A stretch of DNA of 64,000 nucleotides from Emticicia sp. 21SJ11W-3 (GTDB lineage Bacteria; Bacteroidota; Bacteroidia; Cytophagales; Spirosomataceae). Both the position numbers and the translations under genes were made by a program. The DNA is taken from NCBI RefSeq assembly GCF_024138715.1, contig NZ_CP092074.1, positions 1,240,001 through 1,304,000 on the forward strand, read 5' to 3'. Below, in pieces: positions 4,611-64,000 of this stretch (position 1 is its first letter; each line of letters starts with the position of its first letter). The notes under the pieces were generated by a model. The model did no database searches and was not told the origin of the DNA. It saw only the letters and a program-made list of their open reading frames with translations.

Positions 4611-6338
4611 CTAATGCGATTCTCTTTTTACTTCATGACCTGAAAAGCCGGTCAGGAAGTTTAAATCGGCACCTTTGTCAGCTTGTGTTACTGTGTTAAC
4701 GTAAAGTTGCACATAGCCGCGGTCATAGCCCAGGTCAATTGGTTTCCAGTTCCTGCGTCTTTCTGCCAGCTCTTCGTCTGGCACATGAAGCCAGATTTTG
4801 CGCGCCTCTACATCAATTTCAATTAAATCGCCGTTTTGCACCAGCCCTAAAGTGCCACCAACGGCAGATTCTGGCGAAGCATGAAGAAATACTGTTCCAT
4901 AGGCTGTTCCGCTCATACGTGCATCTGAAATACGCACCATGTCGGTAATGCCTTTTTCGAGCAGTTTCCTGGGTAATTGCATATTGCCCACCTCTGGCAT
5001 GCCTGGGTAGCCCTTTGGGCCAACGTTTTTAAGAACCATTACACTGGTTTCATCTATCTCCAGATCCGGGTCGTCTATGCGTGCATGATAATCTTCTATG
5101 GTTTCAAAAACAACGGCTTTGCCAGTATGTTTCATCAGGTGTGGCGATGCAGCAGACGGTTTAATAACCGCCCCGTTTTCGCACAGGTTACCTTTTACAA
5201 CAGCAATGCCGCCCTCTCGTAAGATGGGTTTATCGGCCGTTGCTATTACGTCCTCATTCCATATTTTGGCACCTTTTGAGTTTTCAACCAGGCTTTTACC
5301 ATTTACTGTAATGGCATTTTTATGCAAAAAGCCCGACATCTCCTTAATAACTGCCGGTAGCCCGCCTGCATAATAGAAATCTTCCATCAGATACTTGCCT
5401 GATGGCATCAGATTTAACAGAAACGGCATTTTACTTCCTATGCTGTCAAAATCATCAAGCGTAATATCTACGTTAGTTCTGCCGGCAATGGCCAGTAAGT
5501 GTAGCACCAGGTTAGTTGAGCCCCCCACTGCTGCATTCATCATAATAGCATTTTCGAAGGCTTCGCGGGTAAGCACTGAAGAAATCGCCATGTTTTCGCG
5601 TACCATCTCAACAATTCTCATGCCCGACATGTGTGCCAGCACTTTTTTGCGGGAATCGGCCGCAGGGATAGCCGATGCGCCCGGAAGTGTAAGACCCAGG
5701 GACTCAACCATAACGGCCATTGTAGAGGCTGTACCCATCGTAGAACAGTGTCCTATGCTTCGGCTCATGCAGGCTTCTGCTTCTTCAAATTCTTCGGGTG
5801 TCATTTTGCCCGTTTTAACATCATCCGCAAATCGCCATACATCAGTGCCTGAGCCTATGGCTTTACCTTGAAAACGGCCACTTAGCATGGGGCCTCCCGG
5901 CACCACAATAGTGGGCAGGTCAACACTGGCGGCGCCCATCACCAGCGAAGGTGTGGTTTTGTCGCAGCCGGTTAATAACACCACCGCATCAAACGGATTC
6001 GCTCTAATGCTCTCCTCTACAGTCATGGCAGCAAGATTACGGTATAGCATGGCGGTGGGGCGGATGATAGTTTCGCCCAGCGACATCACCGGAAATTCGA
6101 GCGGAAACCCACCGGCTTCGTAAATGCCGTTTTTTACAGATTGCGCAATATCACGTAAATGGCCGTTGCATGGTGTTACTTCAGACCATGTGTTGCAGAT
6201 TCCGATAACAGGTTTTCCTTTGAACTGATGCGCCGGATAGCCCTGGTTTTTAATCCAACTACGATAGATAAATCCATCTTTCCCATCTTTGCCGAACCAA
6301 TCCTGGCTGCGTAGTTTTGTCGTATTTTCAGTGGTCAT
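4611..6338 (-). CDS. IlvD/Edd-family dehydratase, pentonate/hexonate (L-arabinonate type) rather than branched-chain
   Basis: This is a 575-residue member of the iron-sulfur IlvD/Edd dehydratases, which remove water from sugar acids or dihydroxy acids. The three cluster cysteines are visible: Cys48 (GICNTWSE), Cys125 (TGCDKTTP) and Cys198 (HCSTMGTAST). The catalytic Ser lies in ARMSGTAYGT near residue 480. The NTWSEVTPCNGHLRDIA and EFPVMSLGE segments and the length match sugar-acid dehydratases (L-arabinonate, D-xylonate, L-fuconate-like substrates) better than the amino-acid enzyme ilvD. No sugar-acid pathway gene is adjacent, so the physiological substrate cannot be read from context. The start is the ATG at 6338. 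It is divergent from the DUF937/OmpA-like gene. Confidence 0.9.
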   Translation of the reverse strand: MTTENTTKLRSQDWFGKDGKDGFIYRSWIKNQGYPAHQFKGKPVIGICNTWSEVTPCNGHLRDIAQSVKNGIYEAGGFPLEFPVMSLGETIIRPTAMLYRNLAAMTVEESIRANPFDAVVLLTGCDKTTPSLVMGAASVDLPTIVVPGGPMLSGRFQGKAIGSGTDVWRFADDVKTGKMTPEEFEEAEACMSRSIGHCSTMGTASTMAVMVESLGLTLPGASAIPAADSRKKVLAHMSGMRIVEMVRENMAISSVLTREAFENAIMMNAAVGGSTNLVLHLLAIAGRTNVDITLDDFDSIGSKMPFLLNLMPSGKYLMEDFYYAGGLPAVIKEMSGFLHKNAITVNGKSLVENSKGAKIWNEDVIATADKPILREGGIAVVKGNLCENGAVIKPSAASPHLMKHTGKAVVFETIEDYHARIDDPDLEIDETSVMVLKNVGPKGYPGMPEVGNMQLPRKLLEKGITDMVRISDARMSGTAYGTVFLHASPESAVGGTLGLVQNGDLIEIDVEARKIWLHVPDEELAERRRNWKPIDLGYDRGYVQLYVNTVTQADKGADLNFLTGFSGHEVKRESH

Positions 6339-46725: not shown

Positions 46726-49137
46726 TCAGGGTTTAAAAAGTATTTTTCCTGTTTGTACTTTCTCAATGGCAGTTCTATTCATTAGCTCGGGGCGGGCTTC
46801 TCCGTTTACGTACATTTTTGCCTGGTCGCTGTAATGTTTGCTCATTATATTGCCAGACTGGCCGGTGGGCAATATGCTGGTGCCTTTATCAGGATACCCA
46901 AAATCAATAATACGGCGCAGTGCAGGGCCATAGCTAATGTCATATACACCGGTAGAATCCATCTGAAAATCAAGATTATTGATGGTTTCGCGGCCTCCGG
47001 GTGCCGGAAACGGCCCTACATTAAAGAATTTTCCTACAACCGGTAAAATACCCAGCGGATGCTTGTGCGTAAGGGTATGCACTTTTTCCCATTGCCATTT
47101 TTCTATATCTCCACCCAATTGTTTTTCCAGACTGGCTGCCGCATCATTGATAGATTTGGTAAGTATCTGTCTACGGGTTTCACGTTCAGGAGTATTTACG
47201 TTGTCCCACCACGGAGAATCTTCTTTTTTTATCATGGCAATCATGTTTCTTTTGAAATTGACATTGTGTTCAAAAGAAGCAAACACTTCCTGGCCTAGTT
47301 CATCCTTTACTGTATTTACCAGCATGTAATAAATGAATCGGTAGAAGATGGTCGGTTCAACGTTATTCAATTGATGAGCGCCATCCCACGGAATCAGTTT
47401 CTCAATTGACTTTTTTGCTAAAGGAGATAAATTTTCGGCAAATATGATAGGTATAATGTCTTTCAGTAAGCTTTTATAACTGGTTGATGTTACATCATTA
47501 ATTACTTTTCTTACCTCTTCGGGTGTCCAGTCTTTTTTGTCTGTAAACAACAATTGCTCAATGCGTTTTGCGCGGTTTCCCGGCACATAATAACCGGGTA
47601 CTGGCCCCGTACCCATATCTGCAGGTTGGTTATTGGCTGTGTATAAAACCCCACGTGCTGGATTCAGAATCTGTGGATTCTGCGAAAAATCAAGCCAGCC
47701 CAATGGGTCATCCTTACCTGTAGTACCGTCCAGAATAAGCATCGGGTTAACGTGTGCAGGTCTTCTGGGTAGTTTCCCTGCGGCCCACCATGCAATATTA
47801 CCGGCGGTATCTGCCCACATAAAATTTAATCCCGGTGCAGCCAGAGTACTTACCGCTTTAGATGCTTCGCCCGCATTCCGGGCATGAGCCAGGTCGTAGA
47901 AATTCTGCAATAAATGGCTTGGAAACTGGTTAAACACCCACCATAGAGCAATCGGGTCTTTTTCTTTTGCCATTTTATCAAAACTATCATTCATCAGCGT
48001 TCCGTGGCGCGAACGCTTAATGGTAATCTTTATGTCTTGTACCCCTTTTACTTTAATGCTTTCCTGATAAGTATTCAGGTTTTCCCAATGGTCTTTGTAC
48101 CAAACCTGATTCGGGTTTTGAGGGTTAAGCCTTTCTCTGAAAAAATCTACATCATCGTTTTCAAACATGGTAAGGCCCCAGCCGCCGTTTTGGTTATGCC
48201 CTAAAGCTGCAAATGGTGTACCAGCCAGAAAATTACCATAGAAATGAAAGCCGGGGCATTCGAGGTGTGCTTCGTACCACACCGATGGCTGCGCAAAGGC
48301 TATGTGTGTATCGTTTGATAAAATGGGTTTCCCCGATTTTGTCTTTGAACCGCTTATGACCCAGCCATTGGAACCATGATAAGGCGGAAAAGGGGCAGTT
48401 GTTTCAATTGTAGCCAGTTGGTTGGCTATGCTGGCCAGGGTTTGAGCTACTTTAGCGGCAGAGTCTTTTTGCTGAACAGGTATTACAGGTTCTCCTTTTG
48501 GCCATTGCGACCAAACATCGTTCAGGTATGTGTCACCAAATTTATTGTGAATATACGTAGCAATTGCCTCTGCCCTGAATGCCTCAGCAAACGTAAAACC
48601 CATATAGCCTGAAATAATGTAGCAGTCTTCTAACGTAAAAGGCGTATTAGAGATGCCTGCCAAAGTAAATTCAAGAGGCGCTTTACCTTGAGCCATATAC
48701 TGGTTAATGCCTTTAACGTAGGCCTCGGCAGCTTTTACAAATGGGGCATCGGGGTTTTTTCTTACCAGCGAGTCTATTGTCCATTGGGCATGCTTCCGCA
48801 AGCCAAGTGTACGGAAGAACTTATCTGATGCCACGGCTTTCTCGCCGAACAATTCAGCCAGCCGGCCATCAGCCAGCCTCCTGATGAGTTCCATCTGAAA
48901 CAGCCTGTCTTGTGCATGAACGTAGCCAAAAGCATAAAACAGGTCTTCTTCGTTTTGTGCATAAATGTGCGGCACACCGTAATTATCATAAATTACCTCA
49001 ACTTTGTCTTTGAGGCCTTTTAATTGTAGTTCGGTATTCAGATTAGGTTTAAAAGTTGATAACCATATATAAATGCCTACACCTGCTACTACAATAATAA
49101 TTAGCAGGGCAACGAGTATTTTCTTGAGTACTTTCAT
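46726..49137 (-). CDS. Penicillin acylase-family Ntn hydrolase
   Basis: This is an 803-residue preproprotein: an N-terminal membrane or signal helix (about 6-26), the alpha chain (VIYDNYGVPHIYAQNEEDLFYAFGYVHAQDRLFQMELIRR), a spacer, and the beta chain starting at the nucleophile Ser256 in HGSNGWVISG. Then come SGKPILSNDTHIAFAQPSVWYEAHL and the conserved GLNFMWADTAGNIAWW. The precursor self-cleaves before Ser. Natural substrates include N-acyl-homoserine lactones and other amides. A -7-like box TATTTTTG lies at 49181-49188 on the minus strand. Confidence 0.94.
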   Translation of the reverse strand: MKVLKKILVALLIIIVVAGVGIYIWLSTFKPNLNTELQLKGLKDKVEVIYDNYGVPHIYAQNEEDLFYAFGYVHAQDRLFQMELIRRLADGRLAELFGEKAVASDKFFRTLGLRKHAQWTIDSLVRKNPDAPFVKAAEAYVKGINQYMAQGKAPLEFTLAGISNTPFTLEDCYIISGYMGFTFAEAFRAEAIATYIHNKFGDTYLNDVWSQWPKGEPVIPVQQKDSAAKVAQTLASIANQLATIETTAPFPPYHGSNGWVISGSKTKSGKPILSNDTHIAFAQPSVWYEAHLECPGFHFYGNFLAGTPFAALGHNQNGGWGLTMFENDDVDFFRERLNPQNPNQVWYKDHWENLNTYQESIKVKGVQDIKITIKRSRHGTLMNDSFDKMAKEKDPIALWWVFNQFPSHLLQNFYDLAHARNAGEASKAVSTLAAPGLNFMWADTAGNIAWWAAGKLPRRPAHVNPMLILDGTTGKDDPLGWLDFSQNPQILNPARGVLYTANNQPADMGTGPVPGYYVPGNRAKRIEQLLFTDKKDWTPEEVRKVINDVTSTSYKSLLKDIIPIIFAENLSPLAKKSIEKLIPWDGAHQLNNVEPTIFYRFIYYMLVNTVKDELGQEVFASFEHNVNFKRNMIAMIKKEDSPWWDNVNTPERETRRQILTKSINDAAASLEKQLGGDIEKWQWEKVHTLTHKHPLGILPVVGKFFNVGPFPAPGGRETINNLDFQMDSTGVYDISYGPALRRIIDFGYPDKGTSILPTGQSGNIMSKHYSDQAKMYVNGEARPELMNRTAIEKVQTGKILFKP

Positions 49138-49680: not shown

Positions 49681-51606
49681 ATGAAGAAACTCCTCATATT
49701 AACCTTCTTGTGCCTTTTTTTGGGTTTTGCTGCTCAATCTAAAAGCAGAACCGACAGCTTGCGTGCGGTATTAGCTGGGTTATCGGTACAAAAAAAGAGT
49801 TTTAAGCTCGATACCTCCCTTATTAACCTTTATTGTCAGTTAGGTAAAGAATTTACCAAGGTAAAAGATGATTCGGCCCTTTTTTATCTCAATAAAGCGC
49901 TTGCCATAGCCCAGAGAATTGGTGATAAAGAACTTTTATTGAAAACCTACATTCAAACGGCAACCCATTATGGTATCCAGTTCGGGCACATAAAGGCGCT
50001 GGAGTACTGGTATAAGGCGCTGGCTTTGGCAGAAGAGTTAAAAGATACCAAGAGAAGCATTTTTATACTGGGAAGAATTGCGGTGAGTTTTTCGAGCATG
50101 CACGATTATAAAACTTCAATAGAATACTACAAAAAAAAAGCAGAATTAAGCAAAGCAGTAAATGACCAGCAAGAGTATGTGATGAGCCTGATGAATATCG
50201 GCAATATCAACTTTGATATGGCTGATTACAAAACAGCATTGAAATATTACCAGTTATGCGAGCAGTTAAATAAAAGTATAAAAAGTAAGAAAATTGAGTC
50301 GTCAGTCATTATAAATATTGCAATGACACGCGTGAAATTCAAACAATACCAAGAGGCTCTGGCCGGATTTAAAGCCAGCCTGGAAGTAGACGAAGGCTAT
50401 GATGATAAAGTTGCCTTTGTTAACAACGAAATAGCTAAGGTGTATCTCTTGCTAAACAGACCCAAAGAGTCCCTGAAATACGCAACAATTGCACAAAATA
50501 ATGTTAAGCATGTTTATGCAAAAATGAATATGGATGTTTCCAGAACGCTCTCTGAAATCTACGAGAAAATAGGGAACGACGTGCTTGCCTACAAGTATTA
50601 TAAAGATTACGTTAATGTAAGATTGAGCGAAGATTCAACTAAAAATTCGCAGCTAATGCGTCTTGTTCAATTAGATTATGAAACCGAAAAGAACAACCAG
50701 AAGTTGGCTCAATTGAATTTAAGGATGCAGGAAAGAGAGAACCGGACCAGGCTTATGAGTATTGGTTTAGGCGCCTTATTGGTTTTGATTCTTGTTGGGT
50801 TGGGTTACTCGCGCTCTTTGGCTCAAAAAAATAAACTGATTGAGGCTCAAAAGGCCGCAATTCAGAAATTGAATGAATCGCTGGAAGTGAAAGTTGAAGA
50901 ACGCACCAGAGAATTGACAGTAGCCAATGAAGGGCTTAAACAAAAGAACAAAGAAATAAGAGAGGCCCTTTTAAAAGGCCAGACAATGGAGCGGGAAAGG
51001 GTGGCTTCTGAGCTACATGATAACATAGGAGGCACCTTAACCGCACTTAAATGGCGTTTTGAGGCCTTGGATAAAGATAATCTTTCTGAAAAAGAACAGG
51101 TAATTTATGATGGCATACTAAAAAACATGCACCGGGCTTATGGCGAGGTCCGGCTCATTTCTCATAATATGCTACCCGCCGAGTTTGAAGAAAAAGGCCT
51201 TGTAGGGGCACTTGAAAAATTTATTGCAGACTTAAATACTGGGGCTGCCAAAACAAATTTCAGGCTTAATGTATCTCAATTACAAAAGCCTATCAGGCAG
51301 GAAGTAGCCCTTGAAATTTACATTTGTTGCTTTGAGATTATCAATAATGTGATTAAGCATGCCAATGCAACAGAGGTAGAACTTGAAATAGCTGAGAAAC
51401 AAAATGGTAATCTGGAGGTAATGATACTAGACAACGGTAAAGGATTTGACCCTGCCTTAATTGGTAACGGCAAAGGTCTGAAAAATATCATGAACCGGGC
51501 AGAAAAAGTAAACGGTAGTCTGATAATAGATAGTAAACTAAATGTTGGTTCACAGTTCTGTATCAGTATACCTGAGTTGTTCTGGGAAGAAATACTGGCT
51601 GTCTGA
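49681..51606 (+). CDS. Tetratricopeptide sensor histidine kinase (HisKA_3/NarX type)
   Basis: This is a 641-residue protein: signal peptide (1-20), a periplasmic array of about six TPR-like repeats (45-330: KALEYWYKALALAEEL, KTSIEYYKKKAELSKA, KTALKYYQLCEQLNKS, QEALAGFKASLEVDEG), one membrane helix (357-378), a coiled coil, then HisKA_3 with His446 in ERVASELHDNIGGTLTALKW and HATPase (CCFEIINNVIKHANAT, ILDNGKGFDP, GKGLKNIMNRAEKV). It is the expected partner for a LuxR-type regulator; one lies at 54804-55457. It converges on the HopA1-like gene with only two bases between the stops. Confidence 0.94.
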   Translation: MKKLLILTFLCLFLGFAAQSKSRTDSLRAVLAGLSVQKKSFKLDTSLINLYCQLGKEFTKVKDDSALFYLNKALAIAQRIGDKELLLKTYIQTATHYGIQFGHIKALEYWYKALALAEELKDTKRSIFILGRIAVSFSSMHDYKTSIEYYKKKAELSKAVNDQQEYVMSLMNIGNINFDMADYKTALKYYQLCEQLNKSIKSKKIESSVIINIAMTRVKFKQYQEALAGFKASLEVDEGYDDKVAFVNNEIAKVYLLLNRPKESLKYATIAQNNVKHVYAKMNMDVSRTLSEIYEKIGNDVLAYKYYKDYVNVRLSEDSTKNSQLMRLVQLDYETEKNNQKLAQLNLRMQERENRTRLMSIGLGALLVLILVGLGYSRSLAQKNKLIEAQKAAIQKLNESLEVKVEERTRELTVANEGLKQKNKEIREALLKGQTMERERVASELHDNIGGTLTALKWRFEALDKDNLSEKEQVIYDGILKNMHRAYGEVRLISHNMLPAEFEEKGLVGALEKFIADLNTGAAKTNFRLNVSQLQKPIRQEVALEIYICCFEIINNVIKHANATEVELEIAEKQNGNLEVMILDNGKGFDPALIGNGKGLKNIMNRAEKVNGSLIIDSKLNVGSQFCISIPELFWEEILAV

Positions 51607-51608
51607 TA

Positions 51609-53213
51609 CTAGAATTTAACCTGATTGATTATTTTCAGCAAAGTATCTTTTGCATAGAAACCTTCAAGTTTAATCAGGTCGGTCAGGTTGCCTTCGGCTA
51701 TAGCCAGCAAAATAAGCCCGATAGCTGAGTACCCCTTGTTTATTACCGGCTGCGGCCCGTCATTATCGATTTTTGTATAGCTGTCTGTCTCATTAAGGGT
51801 ATTTACAATTTCGTTAACCAGTAAATGGTTATGTATTTGTTTCTTTTTTAATCGCTTAGGTAATTTAAAATCCAGGCACTTGTTGATTTCTTCAATAAAT
51901 TGGTAATTATCTGAAACCCCCGGCATAGTGGCTGAAATATCTTTCAGCACTGTTTTACAAAGAAACCTGAACAAGTATTCATTCGGGAAATAAGAATATA
52001 ACTTAGCCAGAAAATAGATGATACCTAACCTGCCTTCATTAAAACTATCATCAGTCAGCCTGTATTCAAAACTGCTTGTTTCGTCTTCAATCAGGCTTAA
52101 CCAATAACAATGGGTTTTACCTTTCTGGTTTATTACCAGTGCCTGCCTGCATATCAGCCTTCCTATATGAAGTGCCCAGTTAAGGTAATTGTTTTCTGAT
52201 AGCGGGTTATACCTTTTGCTTCCATTGAAAGCCTTACTTAAAATGGAGAAATCGTACGGATACTTGCTCTGCGGATTCCTGAAAAAGTCGTCTAAATTAA
52301 AGCCCATCTCAAGTAATCTCTTTTTTACAAAACCAGAAAGTCTTTGCTTGCTTATGTTTGCCGTTCTGGTCTGGTAATATTCAATGTAAATTTCAGCCAG
52401 AATATCGGCTCTATACTTACCGAAACTGCTATTTTTTATAGGCGGTTCTTCTCCGAAAGTTATACCTCGCAACACTGTTTTCTTTGTAAAAGGCAGTGTT
52501 GCTGAGCCAAACAAATCGGCATATTGTGGTGCGGTTGCTATTTTCTTTACAATATAAAAAACTATCAAATAATGTTCGCGGGCTGTGTAAAGAACGGCGT
52601 TGTCTAAACGAGAGTTTTTTCTGATAGCAAATTTGTATTCAAAGGGTATCAGCCAATTGTTTAGCTCGTCATGCAGGTCTTTTGAGAATCTGGCAATGGT
52701 CTCAAAATCATAGTTGAAGTGAAAATAAATACGTGTTATAAATGAGCTGCCCAGGTATTTAATACCTCTGAAATAAAACCAGGCATTGTCCAGAATCTCA
52801 AGGCGTTTAATCCTTAAATCTACAATTTTATCCTGGTTAGGGAAGGGGGATGAAGAAACGAAGTCACCGGCAGAAACCAATTTGTACTGTTCTCCTTTGC
52901 ATAAATAAAATTTGCCATGCCGCTTTGCATGACGTACAGACTGTTCGTCCAGTGTCCAGTTTTTATCCCAGGTGTTCAGTTGCTCATCAGATTGATAAAA
53001 TTGTTTTGCCAGCCAATTAAAAGCTTCTTTGTTATCCTCATTCAGTTTCTCTTGTTCTGTAACATTAGCATACAGGCAATATATCTGGTCGCTGATGGCA
53101 TATTTTTTTCCAATTAGTTCCTCTTCTTTTCTGGCGAGCAGCATTTGGGGTTGAAAGGCGGAATCGACATTAACTAATATGGAGTCTATCTGTTTTCGGG
53201 TAGTAAGCGTCAT
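51609..53213 (-). CDS. HopA1-like domain protein with shortened LanC/LanM-cyclase-like C-terminus
   Basis: This is a 534-residue protein. Residues about 135-285 fit the T3SS-effector HopA1 family: RIYFHFNYDFETIARFSKDL, IPFEYKFAIR, RLDNAVLYT, LPFTKKTVLRGITFGEEPPI, SSFGKYRADILAE. In class V lanthipeptides and thioamitides this domain is the lyase that removes phosphate to give dehydro-amino acids. Residues about 340-420 (ALHIGRLICRQALVIN, YWLSLI, GRLGIIYFLAKLYSYF) and 493-520 (NKGYSAIGLILLAIAEGNL, LIKLEGF) resemble the first and last helices of LanC/LanM cyclase domains. The middle is missing, including the Cys-Cys-His zinc ligands. It is the last gene of the operon, 15 bases after the kinase gene. 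Confidence 0.75.
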   Translation of the reverse strand: MTLTTRKQIDSILVNVDSAFQPQMLLARKEEELIGKKYAISDQIYCLYANVTEQEKLNEDNKEAFNWLAKQFYQSDEQLNTWDKNWTLDEQSVRHAKRHGKFYLCKGEQYKLVSAGDFVSSSPFPNQDKIVDLRIKRLEILDNAWFYFRGIKYLGSSFITRIYFHFNYDFETIARFSKDLHDELNNWLIPFEYKFAIRKNSRLDNAVLYTAREHYLIVFYIVKKIATAPQYADLFGSATLPFTKKTVLRGITFGEEPPIKNSSFGKYRADILAEIYIEYYQTRTANISKQRLSGFVKKRLLEMGFNLDDFFRNPQSKYPYDFSILSKAFNGSKRYNPLSENNYLNWALHIGRLICRQALVINQKGKTHCYWLSLIEDETSSFEYRLTDDSFNEGRLGIIYFLAKLYSYFPNEYLFRFLCKTVLKDISATMPGVSDNYQFIEEINKCLDFKLPKRLKKKQIHNHLLVNEIVNTLNETDSYTKIDNDGPQPVINKGYSAIGLILLAIAEGNLTDLIKLEGFYAKDTLLKIINQVKF

Positions 53214-53228
53214 AGCAAGTTAGATAAA

Positions 53229-54356
53229 TTAGAATTCAAAAATTTCAAATCTGCATTCGCCTGAATCATATATCGCATCAATGTACTTTTCTGTATCAAT
53301 CATCAGCCTTTTTACTACTTCCAGACTAACCAGAAAATAATTGAAGTTGCCATCATAGTTTCGTAGCCTTTCAAGTTTTCTTAATGCCCAGAATTTCAGT
53401 ACTCTTGAGGTAAATTGATAATGTGCTGTTTCATTGAAACTGAATTTCTGGCAATAGGCGTTTAAATACTCAGCAAAAAAGAAGTAACGTTTCATCAGCG
53501 AAGCGCTTAATTCGTTGGTTGATGCCCCTCTTCTGAATGCCGGCTGATATAGAACTGACTCAAGAAAACAGGCGAAATCCCAGGCATGGTCTCCTTCAGA
53601 CACGTTTTCAAAATCTATAAATTTAGGCATACCGGTAGCGCCATCCTGCAAAAGATTTTCAACTTTCAGGTCGCCATGTATTAGGTATTCTTCCACTATT
53701 TGTTCTGAAAACTCCTCGAGTGCATCTGCAAAAGTTGCCTTGTTTAAAAAACTATGAAGAATGGCTCTGCTGGGTGAAATGAAGGCAAATGATGGAAAAA
53801 CAACTTCATCTAAAAACTGAGCACGCGTAGCGCCAAGTTGCAGCAGGTTTATAAAACTCCGGTAATAAGATAACCTGTTAAAGCAGTGGTTTTGCAGGAA
53901 AACCTTGGCCGGTGGATTCCCATTCAGACGCAAAGATTGATGCAATGCTGCCAGTGCGTCGGCGGTCTGGCGGGCATATTCCTGCAATTGGCATGAACTA
54001 TTCAGTACCTGATGGGGTTCAGGTAAATTTTGCAGATAGGGTAATAGCAGTATGTTGTATTGCGAATCGAATGAAAAATCCTTCAACTTAACCTGAAGCC
54101 CACCGAACGAGCTGTAAAAATGGTATTCGTTCAGAATAGGTAAGGTGCCGCTGTTGGTCAGAAACTTAGGTTGCTTAAAAACAAACGACTGCTTATTGAC
54201 GGTGCATTTGAGCAGGGTGTTACGAGGATTCCTGGCATCTATGTTTTCAATTAAGAGCAAGTCTCGCTCGCTAAAAATGTTACTCAATGCACTGAACCCA
54301 CTATGGGTATTTTGTTGCAACAAATAGCCGGTAAGATTATAGGCAGTGAGTAACAT
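53229..54356 (-). CDS. Aminoglycoside-phosphotransferase-like kinase, probable protein/peptide kinase of the HopA1 locus
   Basis: This is a 375-residue protein with the APH fold: a degenerate N-lobe with probable ATP-binding Lys61 (FVFKQPK) and Glu77 (LNEYHFY), hinge LLLPYL, catalytic loop LIHGDLKVENLL with Asp229 and Asn234, metal-binding FIDFENV with Asp248, and GDHAWDFACFLES. All catalytic residues are kept, so it should be active. APH-fold kinases paired with HopA1-like proteins phosphorylate Ser/Thr of a precursor peptide in class V lanthipeptide and thioamitide pathways. The spacing to both neighbours (29 and 15 bases) indicates one operon. Confidence 0.87.
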   Translation of the reverse strand: MLLTAYNLTGYLLQQNTHSGFSALSNIFSERDLLLIENIDARNPRNTLLKCTVNKQSFVFKQPKFLTNSGTLPILNEYHFYSSFGGLQVKLKDFSFDSQYNILLLPYLQNLPEPHQVLNSSCQLQEYARQTADALAALHQSLRLNGNPPAKVFLQNHCFNRLSYYRSFINLLQLGATRAQFLDEVVFPSFAFISPSRAILHSFLNKATFADALEEFSEQIVEEYLIHGDLKVENLLQDGATGMPKFIDFENVSEGDHAWDFACFLESVLYQPAFRRGASTNELSASLMKRYFFFAEYLNAYCQKFSFNETAHYQFTSRVLKFWALRKLERLRNYDGNFNYFLVSLEVVKRLMIDTEKYIDAIYDSGECRFEIFEF

Positions 54357-54385
54357 TTTTTAGTCATTCAAAAGTTTGTTAAAAA

Positions 54386-54775
54386 TTAATAAGTGTGCTC
54401 ATGGCTGAAGGTAGACAAGTACTCGCGAAACTCTTTTGCTTCTTTAATTGGCATTGTATGAAATTCATTATGCCTTTTTTTGATAGAGCAGGTTGCTTCT
54501 TCAAATACTTCAACGTAAAGTGCCGGAAATTTGCCAGTGGCATCTGCCTGCGGCTTTGTAAAATTTACCAGCGCATGGCTTTCCATAAAATACGTTTTTG
54601 CATTACCTGCCGAGTCGTTGATTTCAACAAGAGCCAGAGGGTTTTCCATACCCAGCGACTTTTTAAGGTTGTTGTTAGTAATAGGCCTTAATTGACCAAA
54701 CAAAGTAGTAACTCTGTTTTTGTCGACGCCTGCGGTTTGAAAAAAATGCGGGCCGGGGTTAATTGTTTTTGTCAT
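54386..54775 (-). CDS. 129-residue protein of unknown family, candidate substrate or partner of the kinase/HopA1 pair
   Basis: I do not recognise this protein. It has no signal peptide or membrane helix. The middle looks like a small beta-rich domain (PLALVEINDSAGNAKTYFM, FPALYVEVFEEATCSIKK) and the C-terminus is helical and ends in Ser, Thr, His and Tyr (REYLSTFSHEHTY). There is a single Cys (Cys96, in EEATCSIKKR) and 19 Ser/Thr. There is no Gly-Gly leader cleavage site. It starts 28 bases after the response regulator and ends 29 bases before the kinase gene. Possible roles are RiPP-like precursor, carrier protein or chaperone; the sequence does not decide. Confidence 0.8.
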   Translation of the reverse strand: MTKTINPGPHFFQTAGVDKNRVTTLFGQLRPITNNNLKKSLGMENPLALVEINDSAGNAKTYFMESHALVNFTKPQADATGKFPALYVEVFEEATCSIKKRHNEFHTMPIKEAKEFREYLSTFSHEHTY

Positions 54776-54803
54776 ACCAGTAAATGATAGGATGGTGAAA
54801 GGT

Positions 54804-55457
54804 TTATTTAACTAAACCATGCTTCATGGCATACTTCATTAAAGCCAGTGCAGAGCTTACGCCTAATTTTTTCATCAGGTTTCTCCGGTGTGTCTCAACC
54901 GTTGTCGGGCTGATAAAGATTTTTTCGGCAATTTCTGCATTGGTAAACTCTTGTATAATCAATTGCATGATTTCAATCTCCCGTGCTGTTAGCGGCACAT
55001 GCTCACCTATTTCGTCTTTCCCGCTGGCAGTAGCCTGGTTAGGTATCTCTGCCAGACGCATCACAACCGCATCACTGAAATACTTTTGCCCGTTTATTAC
55101 TCTTTTCAAAGCGGCTTCAAGCTCTTTTTTTTCAATGCTTTTTACTATGTAGCCATCAATACCTGCAACAAGCGCTTCTTTAATAACGGTGGCATCTTCA
55201 GACATCGTAAGCAATATGGTTTTTACATGCGGGTATTCTTTCCGTATCCGGATAGTCGTTTCTATACCCCCCATAACAGGCATTTGCAAGTCGCTCAGTA
55301 CCATGTCTATTTCATGCGTACCCATATAAGCTAATGCTTCCTGTCCGTTTTTTACGGTTGCTACTACTTCAAAGTCTGGCATTCTGTTAATGAGCATACC
55401 CAGGCTTTCTGCTACAATAGTGTGGTCGTCAGCAATTAAGATTTTGATTTTCTGCAT
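54804..55457 (-). CDS. NarL/LuxR-family response regulator heading the kinase/HopA1 operon
   Basis: This is a 217-residue regulator: receiver with Asp10-Asp11 and phospho-acceptor Asp56 (VLSDLQMPVMGG), TMSEDATVIKEALVAGIDGYIVKS, then a LuxR helix-turn-helix LTAREIEIMQLIIQEFTNAEIAEKIFISPTTVETHRRNLMKKLGV. It is the first gene of the four-gene minus-strand operon. The TPR kinase at 49681 is the natural partner, since NarX-type kinases pair with this class. A TAAATTTG -7-like box at 55626-55633 would give a leader of about 160 bases. Confidence 0.94.
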   Translation of the reverse strand: MQKIKILIADDHTIVAESLGMLINRMPDFEVVATVKNGQEALAYMGTHEIDMVLSDLQMPVMGGIETTIRIRKEYPHVKTILLTMSEDATVIKEALVAGIDGYIVKSIEKKELEAALKRVINGQKYFSDAVVMRLAEIPNQATASGKDEIGEHVPLTAREIEIMQLIIQEFTNAEIAEKIFISPTTVETHRRNLMKKLGVSSALALMKYAMKHGLVK

Positions 55458-55976: not shown

Positions 55977-56768
55977 ATGGTTCATCAAACTTTGTGTGTT
56001 GTCTGGCTTTTTATTGGGTATATGGTTTTTCATAACATTCTTATAGTCAGTCTTTTGGTGTCGCAGAACAAGGCTGCATTCCGGATATCTGAGCAGGAAT
56101 ATTTTAAAACAATGCTCAGCAATGAAATCCAGGGGGCTCAACTTGCGCTTCAGAAGACCAAATTTATTCGGATCGGATTTCAACTGGTCGATAACCTTGG
56201 CCAGTTATTGACGGTAGTAAAAATTAACCTGGCAGTAATGGAAGAGAGTTTTATGTACCGCAATCAAATCGAATTCGCCGAAAACATGTCTCAGGCCAAT
56301 GAATTGGTAAATACTATGCTAAGTGAGATAAGAACATTGAACAGCGATATTGAAGAACACCTGATAAAGAAATTTGATTTTATTGCCAACTTATCAGAAG
56401 CATTAAGAACCAGACATACTGAAAGCGAAACAACCGCCGAACTAATTATTGAAGGCAAATGCTATTGCTTAGGGTATAACCGGGAAATTATCCTTTTCAG
56501 CATTATTCAGGATATATTTCTGACGGCTCGTCAATGTAGCGAAACAAAAAAAGTTGAGGTTAAACTAAGTTATTTTTTTGATAACTTTACTTTGTGTCTA
56601 ACGTTTGATGCTGCCAATGATTACGCAACTGCAGATACCGGTATTTATGCCCTGCGAGCAACCTTGATTAATTTTGAATTTGGCGTAAAAACCGATAGTG
56701 AATATAGAACCCAATATTGTTTTAGAACCACAATTGTTAATGATAGTATTAATACTACTGATTTATGA
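55977..56768 (+). CDS. Degenerate histidine kinase-like protein lacking the phospho-acceptor His
   Basis: This is a 263-residue protein: one N-terminal membrane helix (about 7-29), a coiled linker, and a dimerisation region clearly related to HisKA_3 (RIGFQLVDNLGQLLTVVKINLAVMEE). The usual ELHDN is QLVDN, so Val71 stands where the phosphorylated His should be. The ATPase part is also eroded: the N-box reads IIQDIFLTARQC instead of ELLNNAIKH and the DNG motif reads DAAND. It probably cannot autophosphorylate. Its stop overlaps the start of the next response regulator gene (ATGA), so the two are made together. Confidence 0.82.
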   Translation: MVHQTLCVVWLFIGYMVFHNILIVSLLVSQNKAAFRISEQEYFKTMLSNEIQGAQLALQKTKFIRIGFQLVDNLGQLLTVVKINLAVMEESFMYRNQIEFAENMSQANELVNTMLSEIRTLNSDIEEHLIKKFDFIANLSEALRTRHTESETTAELIIEGKCYCLGYNREIILFSIIQDIFLTARQCSETKKVEVKLSYFFDNFTLCLTFDAANDYATADTGIYALRATLINFEFGVKTDSEYRTQYCFRTTIVNDSINTTDL

Positions 56769-57409
56769 TAAAAGTTGCCATTGCTGATGACCACCAGCTT
56801 GTGGCCAAGGCTATTTCGGGGCTTATACAGAAGATTGACCCTTATGATGTGATTTTTGAAGTTGAAAACGGTAAAGAGCTTGTGCGGTACTTTAATCTGG
56901 GTATGGTGCCAGACATTGTGCTGCTTGATATCAATATGCCTGAAATGGACGGTTATGAAACGGCTTTATGGTTGAAAACCAATTATCCTGATGTTAAAGT
57001 GCTGGCGCTTTCTATGTATGACAAAGAAGAGTCAATCGTTACGATGCTTCGTAATGGCGCCAAAGGATATTTGTTGAAGGGATGCAGACCTTCTGAGCTA
57101 AAAGATGCGCTTGATGCAATTATGACCAAGGGGTTTTATTATACCGAGTACTTGACAGACAGGCTGGTTAAAAGCCTGAATTCTGAAAAAAGTAAAAACC
57201 CGGCTGAACAACTGGGGCTTAATAGCCGAGAACTACAATTTATTGAATATGCCTGCAGTGAACTTACATATAATGAAATTGCCGACCTGATGTGCGTAAG
57301 CCCTAGAACGGTGGATGGTTATCGCGAGCAGGTGTTTATGAAATTGGGTGTAAAAAGCAGGGTAGGGGTAGTGCTGGAAGCAATAAAATCGGGTATTATT
57401 AAAATTTGA
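56765..57409 (+). CDS. NarL/LuxR-family response regulator, partner of the degenerate kinase
   Basis: This is a 214-residue regulator with intact receiver (Asp8-Asp9, phospho-acceptor Asp55 in LLDINMPEMDG, LALSMYDKEESIVTMLRNGAKGYLLKG) and LuxR effector (LNSRELQFIEYACSELTYNEIADLMCVSPRTVDGYREQVFMKLGV). The receiver keeps all phosphorylation residues although the co-encoded kinase has lost its His, so phosphate would have to come from another kinase or a small phosphodonor. It overlaps the upstream gene by four bases. Confidence 0.94.
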   Translation: MIKVAIADDHQLVAKAISGLIQKIDPYDVIFEVENGKELVRYFNLGMVPDIVLLDINMPEMDGYETALWLKTNYPDVKVLALSMYDKEESIVTMLRNGAKGYLLKGCRPSELKDALDAIMTKGFYYTEYLTDRLVKSLNSEKSKNPAEQLGLNSRELQFIEYACSELTYNEIADLMCVSPRTVDGYREQVFMKLGVKSRVGVVLEAIKSGIIKI

Positions 57410-61851: not shown

Positions 61852-63036
61852 TTATTCTTCATCAGTTCCGCTCATTCCTGATAAAAAATGTCCGTTGCTG
61901 ATTACGACCTGATGAGAAAAATCAAGGTTTCCAACCGGCAAAATTTCTATGTTGCCTTCTTGTAAACCTCCTAATTTAACAGGTATTTTTCTGAAAACTG
62001 CCTCTTTGTCGTTTTGTTTTTCGAGAATCATAATAAAATTACCATCGGGCTCTCTTAACACGGCACTTTCGGGTAATGTTCTGGCATTTCTGGTGCCGGT
62101 TAATACCCTGGCGTTAATAAACATGCCCGGTATAAGCCTTTGCTCCTGTTGTTCATTGTTCAGGTGCACATGCACATTTATTGCTTTTGAGTCTGTTTCA
62201 AAGGTCTGGCCTACCAAAAAAACGGTTCCTTCAACTTTATCGCCCAGTCGCGTGTCATCAATCAATACTTTTTGCCCTTTCTGTATCTTAAAAGCATCTT
62301 TTTCAAGAATTTTCAGCTCAACGTGTAAATGCTCTTTGCTGATAATCTCAAACAGTACATCATTCGGGGCTACAGATTTGCCGGTATTGATATTTGTGGC
62401 TTTAATGTATCCGCTAATAGGGGCAATAACATTTAATGTTGCAGATATATCGCCTTTTTTAAGTGCAGCAATATTAGTGCCTAATACCCGAAGCTTGGCC
62501 TCAAGCGATTTCACAAGCGCCTGGTTACCTTTAAAGTCTGACTCTGCCTGCTGCAATTTCTTTTTTACGCCAATGTCTTCAGCATTCAGGCTTTGCTGGC
62601 GCTCCAGTTCTTTTTCAAGAAAACCGGTATGAGCTGCTGCCTGAAAGTAATCCTGCTGCATCTGAATAAATTCAATAGATTCAATTGTAGCCAGTACAGT
62701 ACCCTTGGTAACAAATCTGCCTGGAAGCGCATTATTAGAAGAGATATTTTTTACAAATCCATTAATGGGCAGGCTGATAGAGGCCATGTTTTCTGGTGGC
62801 ACATCGGCCACCCCATTGGCTTTAATTTCTTCATTCAGAGGCATCTCTTTAAAGTTCCCCATGCCCAAATGCAGGTTTTTGAATTGTTCAGCCGATACCC
62901 TTATAAGCCCGGTGGGGGCATTGGTTTGTGCCGAATCGGCAGTAGAGGTATTTGCCTTTTTATTTGCATCAGTGTTCTTTGTGCAGGCCTGTAGGCATGC
63001 AAGGCCTATCAGTGACAGAAAAAAATATGTTTTCAT
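61852..63036 (-). CDS. RND efflux periplasmic adaptor (MFP/CusB-CzcB-like lipoprotein)
   Basis: This is a 394-residue lipoprotein (lipobox LIGLACLQAC, Cys18) with a linker, biotinyl-lipoyl-like halves (GFVKNISSNNALPGRFVTKGTVLATIES and VIAPISGYIKATNINTGKSVAPNDVLFEI) around an alpha-hairpin (about 125-185), then a beta-barrel and a membrane-proximal domain. It joins an inner-membrane RND pump to a TolC-type channel. The CzcB/CusB-like sequence suggests metal efflux, but no His/Met-rich metal site is evident. It lies 12 bases downstream of the TolC-type gene in the same operon. Confidence 0.93.
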   Translation of the reverse strand: MKTYFFLSLIGLACLQACTKNTDANKKANTSTADSAQTNAPTGLIRVSAEQFKNLHLGMGNFKEMPLNEEIKANGVADVPPENMASISLPINGFVKNISSNNALPGRFVTKGTVLATIESIEFIQMQQDYFQAAAHTGFLEKELERQQSLNAEDIGVKKKLQQAESDFKGNQALVKSLEAKLRVLGTNIAALKKGDISATLNVIAPISGYIKATNINTGKSVAPNDVLFEIISKEHLHVELKILEKDAFKIQKGQKVLIDDTRLGDKVEGTVFLVGQTFETDSKAINVHVHLNNEQQEQRLIPGMFINARVLTGTRNARTLPESAVLREPDGNFIMILEKQNDKEAVFRKIPVKLGGLQEGNIEILPVGNLDFSHQVVISNGHFLSGMSGTDEE

Positions 63037-63048
63037 TGTATGTGCCGT

Positions 63049-64000
63049 TTAGTCTATACCCAGTAGTGTTTCTATCTGAATGATAGTGTGATTAAAATTT
63101 AGAACTGTTAGAAGGTAGTCGTCTTTAATTTGCCATGCCTGCTGATTGTTTTGCACCAGCTCAACATAATCAATTTCTCCGCTCTGATAGCTTCTCATGG
63201 CATTTTTCATGAGCACGTTGGCCTGTGGTAAAGCGTATTTTTCATAATAGGCAAGCGAACTGCGGTGTTTCTCATAATTGAGCCTTAAAACATGAAGCTG
63301 GCCTGTTATCTGGTTTTCGGCCTGCCGCAGATGCGATTCCGCTATTTTTTCGTTCACCTGTGCCGCTTCTATTCTTGCTTTCTGCGCTTTGGTGAAAATC
63401 GGTATGCCTATACCGCCGGACACCACCATCTGGTTAAGCTGATGCTCAATACTCTGATTGATGATTCCCAAACGAAAGTCAGGTTTTAATCGCTGTTTTT
63501 CAAGGTTAGTCTGCATTTTGCTTACCTCGGTTTGTTGTTCCACAACTGCCAATAGAGGGTTACTCAAGCTGTTGAAAGACCGGCTGATTACGGTGGTATC
63601 TCTCTTCAGAGGCAAAGAAAAATCAAGCGAAAAATCATCCTTGCTGTTCAATACTATTTTAAAAGCCTGATAAGCAGCCGATTCGTCTTTGTCCAGTATC
63701 CTTAGCCGGTTATTGATGTCCTGTAGCCTTACCTCTGCGCTTATTTTTTCAAGGGCATTGCTTTCGCCGGCTTTATACCGGGCCTGGGCCATTTGCATGG
63801 CGCTACGGTATACGCTATCCTGCTGGGTAAGCGCCTGTCTTAATTGCTGATAATAATACAACTGATAGTATAGCTGTTTCAGAGAACCTACAATTTCAGA
63901 TTTGCGCAGAATCTGGTTTTTCTGGCTGGCAACTACATGGCTTTGCTGCAAATCTGCCTGTGCCTGATACAATTTCGGATGTGCAAATTGTTGCACCAGG
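63049..64000 (-). CDS. TolC-family outer-membrane efflux protein (CusC/CzcC-like), 5' part beyond window
   Basis: The frame is open to the right edge, so the N-terminal part, including the signal peptide, lies outside; about 317 residues are visible. The helical pattern fits TolC proteins: QLYYQLYYYQQLRQALTQQDSVYRSAMQMAQARYKAGESNALEKISAEVRLQDI, and a second repeat ending in LKLMKNAMRSYQSGEIDYVELVQNNQQAW-type sequence. It forms the exit duct of the RND pump with the adaptor downstream. The pump gene (CzcA/CusA type) is expected just upstream, outside the window. Confidence 0.92.
   Translation of the reverse strand, partial: LVQQFAHPKLYQAQADLQQSHVVASQKNQILRKSEIVGSLKQLYYQLYYYQQLRQALTQQDSVYRSAMQMAQARYKAGESNALEKISAEVRLQDINNRLRILDKDESAAYQAFKIVLNSKDDFSLDFSLPLKRDTTVISRSFNSLSNPLLAVVEQQTEVSKMQTNLEKQRLKPDFRLGIINQSIEHQLNQMVVSGGIGIPIFTKAQKARIEAAQVNEKIAESHLRQAENQITGQLHVLRLNYEKHRSSLAYYEKYALPQANVLMKNAMRSYQSGEIDYVELVQNNQQAWQIKDDYLLTVLNFNHTIIQIETLLGID

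Follow-up and report, generated by a model that had tools for sequence, protein, structure and literature searches.

What would a pair of enzymes of the kind that dehydrates lanthipeptides do inside a two-component locus of a Bacteroidota genome? The question is raised by an operon at positions 51609..55457 of the window, by which we mean the whole stretch of 64,000 nucleotides of Emticicia sp. 21SJ11W-3 analysed here (contig NZ_CP092074.1, positions 1,240,001 to 1,304,000). On the minus strand the operon encodes, in this order, a LuxR/NarL-type response regulator (54804..55457; Response_reg, 1e-27; GerE, 5e-19), a small protein of 129 residues proposed here as precursor (54386..54775), an APH-fold kinase of proposed Ser/Thr specificity (53229..54356) and a HopA1-like protein (51609..53213), separated by 28, 29 and 15 bases; on the plus strand a TPR histidine kinase, the proposed receptor (49681..51606), converges on the HopA1-like gene across a gap of 2 bases. 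Checked on the sequence, the reading frames, strands and gaps are those given by the original prediction, which had been made from the letters of the window alone. Our answer, to which we assign a probability of about one half, is that the cassette is a pherotype-like peptide-signalling system, the signal being the tail of the small protein after dehydration and, probably, bridging through His or Cys. Signalling had already been put forward as a possible purpose, and it gains support from the exchange of the cassette as a block and from the covariation of the sensor half of the histidine kinase with the modifying enzymes.

A class V-type kinase and lyase

The HopA1-like protein matches PF17914 (E 2.7e-14; 53.8 bits against a cut-off of 22.7) over residues 159-310 (52284..52739, minus strand), which establishes its predicted identity and shifts the domain from residues 135-285, where it had been placed. 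Its best solved relative, by sequence as well as by model, is LxmY, a class V lanthipeptide lyase, and the lyase residues are well kept among 23 aligned proteins (R161 and K194 in all of them, R202 and Y209 in 21 each). The kinase matches the APH family (E 1.7e-9) and, weakly, the LxmK model NF038156 (E 7.6e-4, with the cut-off far above); its residues K61, E77, D229, N234 and D248 are invariant in the 19 sequences aligned. Judged by homology, the pair is a class V-type dehydratase (LanK/LanY), and the PF17914 match, the APH match and the likeness to LxmY agree with the earlier proposal of a Bacteroidota version of this pair in a two-component locus.

The statement that the locus has no LanC is wrong in part. 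Residues 331-429 of the HopA1-like protein match the LanM model TIGR03897 (E 2e-7, far under the cut-off of that model), and its C-terminal part, about residues 342-510 (51684..52190, minus strand), is a shortened, hollow LanC fused to the lyase. Compared with the intact LanC of related loci, most relatives, like the window's protein, retain the hairpins that come first (GxxGIxxFL) and last (GLAGxGYxFLR) and have lost the region between them, zinc sites included; in one locus, L032, the last hairpin is lost as well. The motifs WC.G and CHG, which hold the zinc ligands of the cyclase (Cys and Cys-His), occur in none of the 23 fused lyases, as against all six separate LanC reading frames examined from the type B loci described below, and they are likewise absent from seven loci found later, in one of which (L128) the LanC-like part is longer. 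The fused lyases are monophyletic in the best tree with a support of 72/95, which is not firm. In two loci the kinase, lyase and LanC remnant are naturally fused in one protein of 974-976 residues (L038:6903-9833 and L045:7032-9956, both plus strand). The pair is so classed, but a class V lanthipeptide cluster was considered and rejected as a description of the window's whole locus, because the Cys core and the zinc-bearing LanC that were sought were not found.

Distribution of the cassette

Thirty loci of the window's kind, the window included, are present in 29 of 222 Spirosomaceae/Spirosomataceae genomes. A search of the family with the HopA1-like protein returned relatives in 34 genomes, and the 34 neighbourhoods comprised 22 with the architecture of the window, nine of type B (APH, HopA1 and a separate LanC) and three that were other or partial; searching with the histidine kinase added seven further loci of the window's type. 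The gene order thus extends well beyond a single genome, as had been asked of it. In every one of the 23 loci of the first set (window included), the gene next to HopA1 encodes a convergent histidine-kinase homologue, and a homologue of the regulator lies within five genes in 14. Among 12 type B loci (L033, L039-L042, L054, L055, L062 and L065 within the family; L073-L075 outside it), none has a relative of the window's histidine kinase and one has a relative of the regulator.

In these type B loci of Bacteroidota a true LanC accompanies the class V-type dehydratase, and they apparently make ordinary lanthionine. Where found, their precursors are long and rich in Cys, and some of the loci stand beside a protease-like gene, as seen by eye. 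In L075 a precursor of 106 residues (5486-5806, plus strand), with four tandem copies like DDCCWIAVATTSC, lies directly before the APH, HopA1 and LanC genes.

A class-wide profile search gave matches in four of 394 other genomes, three with separate HopA1 and LanC genes and one LanM-like, and none of the four has the window's architecture. Across the phylum, the Pfam HopA1 profile matched one of 296 genomes, the window's own, and is too insensitive for counting; viral contigs searched with the HopA1-like protein held no relative. Several loci were set apart before the counts were made: the near copies L060 and L064, the partial L063 and L129, L053 and L061 (HopA1 without LanC, with the histidine kinase between small protein and kinase), L165 and L174 (HopA1 without LanC, with an extra gene) and L157 (HopA1 in two frames), whose His tail is quoted but uncounted. 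L141, with HopA1 and APH fragments nearby, was counted as a control, and the APH and HopA1 frames of L055, missed by gene calling, are shown by tblastn.

The small protein and its tail

The 129-residue protein is the probable substrate of the two enzymes, because a variable small protein precedes the kinase in 30 loci and carries a tail with His or Cys. It has no match in Pfam or NCBIfam, no paralogue in its own genome at E<=1 and, by hydropathy, no N-terminal hydrophobic segment. The corresponding proteins of related loci, 106-193 residues long and encoded between regulator and kinase, fall into groups most of which have no mutual match, and two groups that were compared showed weak similarity (E 2.8e-4, probability 41%). 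The enzymes had been predicted to modify a protein or peptide on a two-component signal; of this it stands that they most likely act on the co-encoded protein, and what is new is that this protein is the product of a variable, precursor-like gene and that the likely site lies in its C-terminal tail.

That tail, S121-T-F-S-H-E-H-T-Y129 (54389..54415, minus strand), is where we propose that dehydration and bridging take place. It contains T122-x-x-H125, which has the form of the Thr-x-x-His acceptor of LanKC-Hbt enzymes, and S124-x-x-H127, and it has no Cys, the only Cys of the protein being 34 residues from the end. Since the tail offers His instead of Cys, an ordinary lanthionine would not be expected there. 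The last 25 residues of 28 distinct small proteins contain His only in 21 cases and Cys only in 7, never both and never neither; the core with Ser/Thr and Cys for (methyl)lanthionine, expected of a class V precursor, was not found in the window's protein. In the first 21 tails, taken as the last 30 residues each, Ser or Thr stands three residues before His in 15 (4.4 +- 1.8 in shuffled tails, 0/20000 as high), a pattern noticed before it was counted, and five residues before His in 11 (4.0 +- 1.7 in shuffled tails), with spacings of 1, 2, 4, 6, 7 and 8 at chance level. The three-residue pattern is present in 26 of 437 other proteins of the loci and in one of 81 internal stretches of the same small proteins.

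A natural control is provided by 29 loci, with 27 distinct small proteins, in which the regulator, a small protein and the convergent kinase occur with no enzymes between them (among them L130, L136, L138, L139, L142, L144 and L146); they were drawn from 63 histidine-kinase relatives examined in 60 further loci. Ser or Thr at three residues before His was found in 16 of the 28 distinct cassette tails versus none of the 27 control tails, and the wider pattern [ST]-x(2,3)-[HC] in 25 of 28 versus 1 of 27, although His or Cys as such is present in 12 of the latter. For the wider pattern p is 2.8e-11 overall and 3.5e-5 for the seven later loci, values that belong to a pattern drawn post hoc and to rows that are not independent. 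Thirteen of the 27 control tails show a MNPTGPPKP-like C-terminal motif, which is perhaps an unmodified signal. Homology between the small proteins of the cassettes and those of the enzyme-less loci was also considered and is unsupported (hhalign probability under 1%).

In the lyase tree, supported branches make Cys tails (TVSRPPC, TVSTPPC) sister to His tails (SISKPPH, SSVPPH, SLPPH), with a change of nucleophile inside one frame. Among the enzyme-less loci, L135, L149, L150 and L167 encode small proteins that carry a CG-G-CPG-like motif and a signal peptide of lipoprotein type. In a further variant, L165 (7923-10667, minus strand) and L174 (3819-6259, plus strand) combine a LanC-less HopA1-like protein with an extra protein of 149-207 residues and a small protein bearing [ST]QRPCPVTW.

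Exchange of the cassette as a block

Six genomes of the same genus allow the locus to be compared at one chromosomal site. Identity is 79-98% for the flanking genes compared and 63-95% for the regulators (the window's regulator is 63-66% identical to the same-site regulator in five of the genus), but the small proteins (22-32%), APH kinases (20-29%) and HopA1-like proteins (24-28%) are near the shuffled level, with one exceptional pair, L050 and L125 (32, 49 and 66%, respectively). The clearest pair, L051 and L128, has a flank identical at 96% and a regulator at 95% beside a small protein at 22%, APH at 25% (22.7% when shuffled), HopA1 at 26% and a histidine kinase at 35%. L124 has an empty version of the site: its regulator, which shares 89-90% identity with the regulators of L050 and L125, is separated by 3 bases from a histidine kinase facing it, and small protein, kinase and lyase are all absent. 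What is swapped as a block thus comprises the small protein, the APH kinase, the lyase and the histidine kinase, and within the genus the regulator is what remains constant. Joint exchange of precursor, modifier and receptor with regulator and flanks kept is also what a system like ComQXPA of Bacillus would present.

The histidine kinase as candidate receptor

By Pfam and hydropathy the histidine kinase starts like a protein with a signal peptide (residues 1-20), continues with a TPR region, has one transmembrane segment (about residues 356-376) and ends in HisKA_3/HATPase. The TPR region should be periplasmic, because of the signal-peptide-like start and the single transmembrane segment. In the window's own genome the best-scoring relative of this kinase reaches 98 bits; the histidine kinases beside other cassettes reach 182-456 bits and a second kinase at L050 reaches 751.

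Over 17 loci, pairwise identity of the sensor half follows that of APH (rho 0.47) and HopA1 (0.48; Mantel p 5e-4 each), whereas the relation to the regulator is weak (0.20, p 0.05) and falls to 0.03-0.04 with APH or HopA1 held constant; for the catalytic half the values are 0.16 with APH (p 0.15) and 0.20 with HopA1 (p 0.03). Restricting the comparison to 16 divergent loci left 0.31 (p 0.013) and 0.42 (p 0.0015) for the sensor half, and 0.04 and 0.15, neither significant, for the catalytic half. With all 28 loci, the sensor half gave 0.30 with APH and 0.38 with HopA1, and the catalytic half 0.13 with APH. In this small sample, then, the sensor region diverges with the modifier and not with the regulator, as in a ComQXPA-like system, and it covaries with the enzymes more than the catalytic half does, as expected if the sensor reads their product.

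Proposed mechanism and alternatives

Strong homology suggests that the kinase would phosphorylate Ser/Thr in the tail of the small protein and that the lyase would eliminate the phosphate to leave dehydroalanine or dehydrobutyrine (Dhb). A nearby His, or Cys in a quarter of the loci, would then probably add to form a small ring of the histidinobutyrine type, in the window T122-H125 or S124-H127, perhaps aided by the zinc-less LanC remnant. We propose this ring from the make-up of the tails and because their Ser/Thr-His spacing equals the i, i+3 spacing of the bridge in noursin, a class III lanthipeptide; according to the noursin report, its synthetase makes a Dhb8-His11 bridge that is required for copper binding (PMC10206099). 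Enzymes whose genes lie elsewhere would probably free the modified tail in the form of a short peptide. Covariation and block exchange suggest that the histidine kinase next to the cassette enzymes would read this peptide with its periplasmic TPR region and would signal to the LuxR-type regulator, whose output may include its own operon, a self-regulation for which the gene layout speaks. Replacing small protein, kinase, lyase and receptor as a block would change specificity and leave the regulator unchanged.

Several observations count against this proposal: (i) the ring may not form, because the LanC remnant, which in the window is among the most decayed, has no nameable catalytic site and because, in the noursin report, imidazole does not add to Dhb unaided (PMC10206099); (ii) the operon contains no exporter, maturation protease or signal peptide according to the list of reading frames, profile search and hydropathy, and the nearest recognised export-type gene, an HlyD/CusB adaptor (61852-63036), lies 6.4 kb away, outside the exchanged block; (iii) strict S/T-x-x-H is found in only one of the seven later loci (His being present in the last 20 residues of three and Cys in four), the wider pattern was formulated only once the tails, those of the later loci included, had been read, and L053 and L061, with kinase and LanC-less lyase, have no such tail; (iv) the histidine kinase has relatives, scoring 230-720 bits, at sites where no cassette is known, and its catalytic half, too, covaries with HopA1 when all 28 loci are taken (0.27, p 5e-4); and (v) a structure model of the small protein, made for the L057 group, had a predicted local distance difference test (pLDDT) score of 38, was unusable and was not used.

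The second of these points also favours the explanation that survives best after our own, which we nevertheless regard as unlikely, namely that a small regulatory protein of the cytoplasm has its tail dehydrated, perhaps bridged, and acts inside the cell, for example on the regulator or the kinase domain, with no export. Proteins of 106-193 residues exceed the usual precursor size, and the existence of enzyme-less loci with regulator, small protein and histidine kinase means that the small protein may itself be a regulatory partner. However, it is the extracytoplasmic half of the histidine kinase that covaries more with the modifying enzymes, the exchange of the block resembles that of a recognition locus, and the homology to the small proteins of the enzyme-less loci is unsupported. 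The earlier suggestion that the product stays in the cell agrees with an operon devoid of an exporter and is probably incomplete, since a peptide signal sensed by the neighbouring histidine kinase fits the evidence better.

An ordinary antibiotic-like cluster of class V type under two-component control, as for nisin or mersacidin, is improbable. It would share its enzyme pair with cacaoidin and lexapeptide, and related loci of the same family do have intact LanC and Cys-rich precursors, but Cys is absent from 21 of 28 tails, the zinc motifs are missing throughout the fused lyases, no transporter, immunity or decarboxylase gene is among the profile-searched neighbours in the window save the distant HlyD/CusB adaptor, and the cluster-like type B loci are those that lack the histidine kinase and, with one exception, the regulator. 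Still less probable is a metal-binding tail, whose His or Cys would bind copper or zinc for sensing by the histidine kinase while the enzymes merely activate the protein; both residues commonly bind metals, and noursin is reported to bind copper only with its His bridge, but the spacing of Ser/Thr and the need for a kinase and a lyase are left unexplained. Finally, OspF-like irreversible removal of phosphate from the two-component proteins themselves, with the small protein incidental, is suggested by the fold common to HopA1 and OspF/SpvC and by the position of the enzymes in a two-component locus, and is very improbable in view of the chemistry, beta-elimination not using phospho-His/Asp, and of a tail that tracks the presence of the enzymes.

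Going further than a signalling role for this one cassette, we tentatively suggest, as a generalisation that may well prove wrong, that ribosomal, kinase/lyase-dehydrated, His-bridged peptides serve Spirosomaceae as pheromones specific to the strain. Precursor, class V-type enzymes and TPR receptor kinase would be exchanged jointly, as a single pherotype cassette, and a decayed LanC would have been re-used for, or replaced in, His addition. If so, the chemistry of ribosomally synthesized and post-translationally modified peptides would be tied to kin-specific signalling in a Gram-negative phylum, a private lanthipeptide-like quorum-sensing language would exist where it was unexpected, in the Bacteroidota family Spirosomaceae, and a second enzyme lineage would make His-dehydroamino-acid bridges. 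The natural pairs with the same regulator and different cassettes would make recognition specificity directly testable.

Genomic surroundings

Seven neighbouring proteins were profiled (VanZ-like, penicillin amidase, Alpha-E, proteasome-like, phosphomutase, transglutaminase-like and the HlyD/CusB adaptor); none belongs to the exchanged block, and several are conserved as its flanks in the genus. Neighbours at the other loci were inspected by eye only. The penicillin amidase family protein (46726-49137, minus strand; PF01804, 3.8e-220) is 79-82% identical beside the exchanged cassette in three genomes of the genus. A second, short HisKA_3 protein and a LuxR regulator (55977-57409, plus strand) adjoin the operon and have no counterpart in five same-genus stretches. 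At 61852-63999 (minus strand) the HlyD/CusB-type adaptor is followed upstream, at the end of the window, by a frame that looks by eye like an outer-membrane factor; the two probably form an efflux pump that has nothing to do with the cassette. Against a defence library the APH kinase, lyase and small protein were unmatched, the regulator had weak matches and the histidine kinase a TPR match.

Comparison with known systems

In a literature search outside which most subscription journals lay, we found nothing on class V lanthipeptides in Bacteroidota, nothing linking Spirosoma or Dyadobacter with lanthipeptides or pheromones, His-dehydroamino-acid bridges only for class III enzymes of the noursin type, and no peptide pheromone system with co-varying modifier and receptor for the Spirosomaceae group, the Gram-positive case being ComQXPA. 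The closest enzymes are LxmKY and CaoKY (LanK and LanY), which are likewise an APH kinase and a HopA1-like lyase encoded by separate adjacent genes; the R, K, R and Y residues of LxmY align with the window's lyase, whose best match in the Protein Data Bank it is. The window differs from them in its Bacteroidota host, in the fusion of the lyase to a LanC remnant, in precursors of 106-193 residues with tails mostly free of Cys and in an operon without decarboxylase, reductase or second APH protein. The type B loci (e.g., L033, L042 and L075) share a related kinase and lyase in the same order but have the separate LanC with zinc motifs, Cys-rich precursors where found and no histidine kinase of the window's family.

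NorKC, a class III LanKC-Hbt enzyme, resembles the cassette in its Thr-x-x-His modification site and its unusual cyclase domain. The domains of LanKC-Hbt enzymes are ordered lyase-kinase-cyclase, and NorKC is a single three-domain enzyme of Streptomyces, whereas the window's genes are separate and the natural fusions of L038 and L045 have a different order. Noursin is, moreover, a small peptide that also carries labionin, its cluster includes an S9 peptidase and a transporter, and its bridge chemistry is proven where ours is proposed.

The nearest parallel in organisation is ComQXPA, in which the precursor is not known to have a signal peptide and the LuxR/NarL-type ComA is constant. Both systems comprise a modifying enzyme, a precursor, a histidine kinase and a response regulator, with precursor, modifier and receptor polymorphic. 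In two reports on Bacillus, it is the polymorphism of comQ, comX and comP that gives rise to pherotypes (PMC4408185; PMC4008528). The modifier of ComQXPA is an isoprenyl transferase, all its genes lie on one strand, and its hosts are Gram-positive; we claim homology for the two-component proteins only, and by analogy the cassette would work like ComQXPA without being a member of it.

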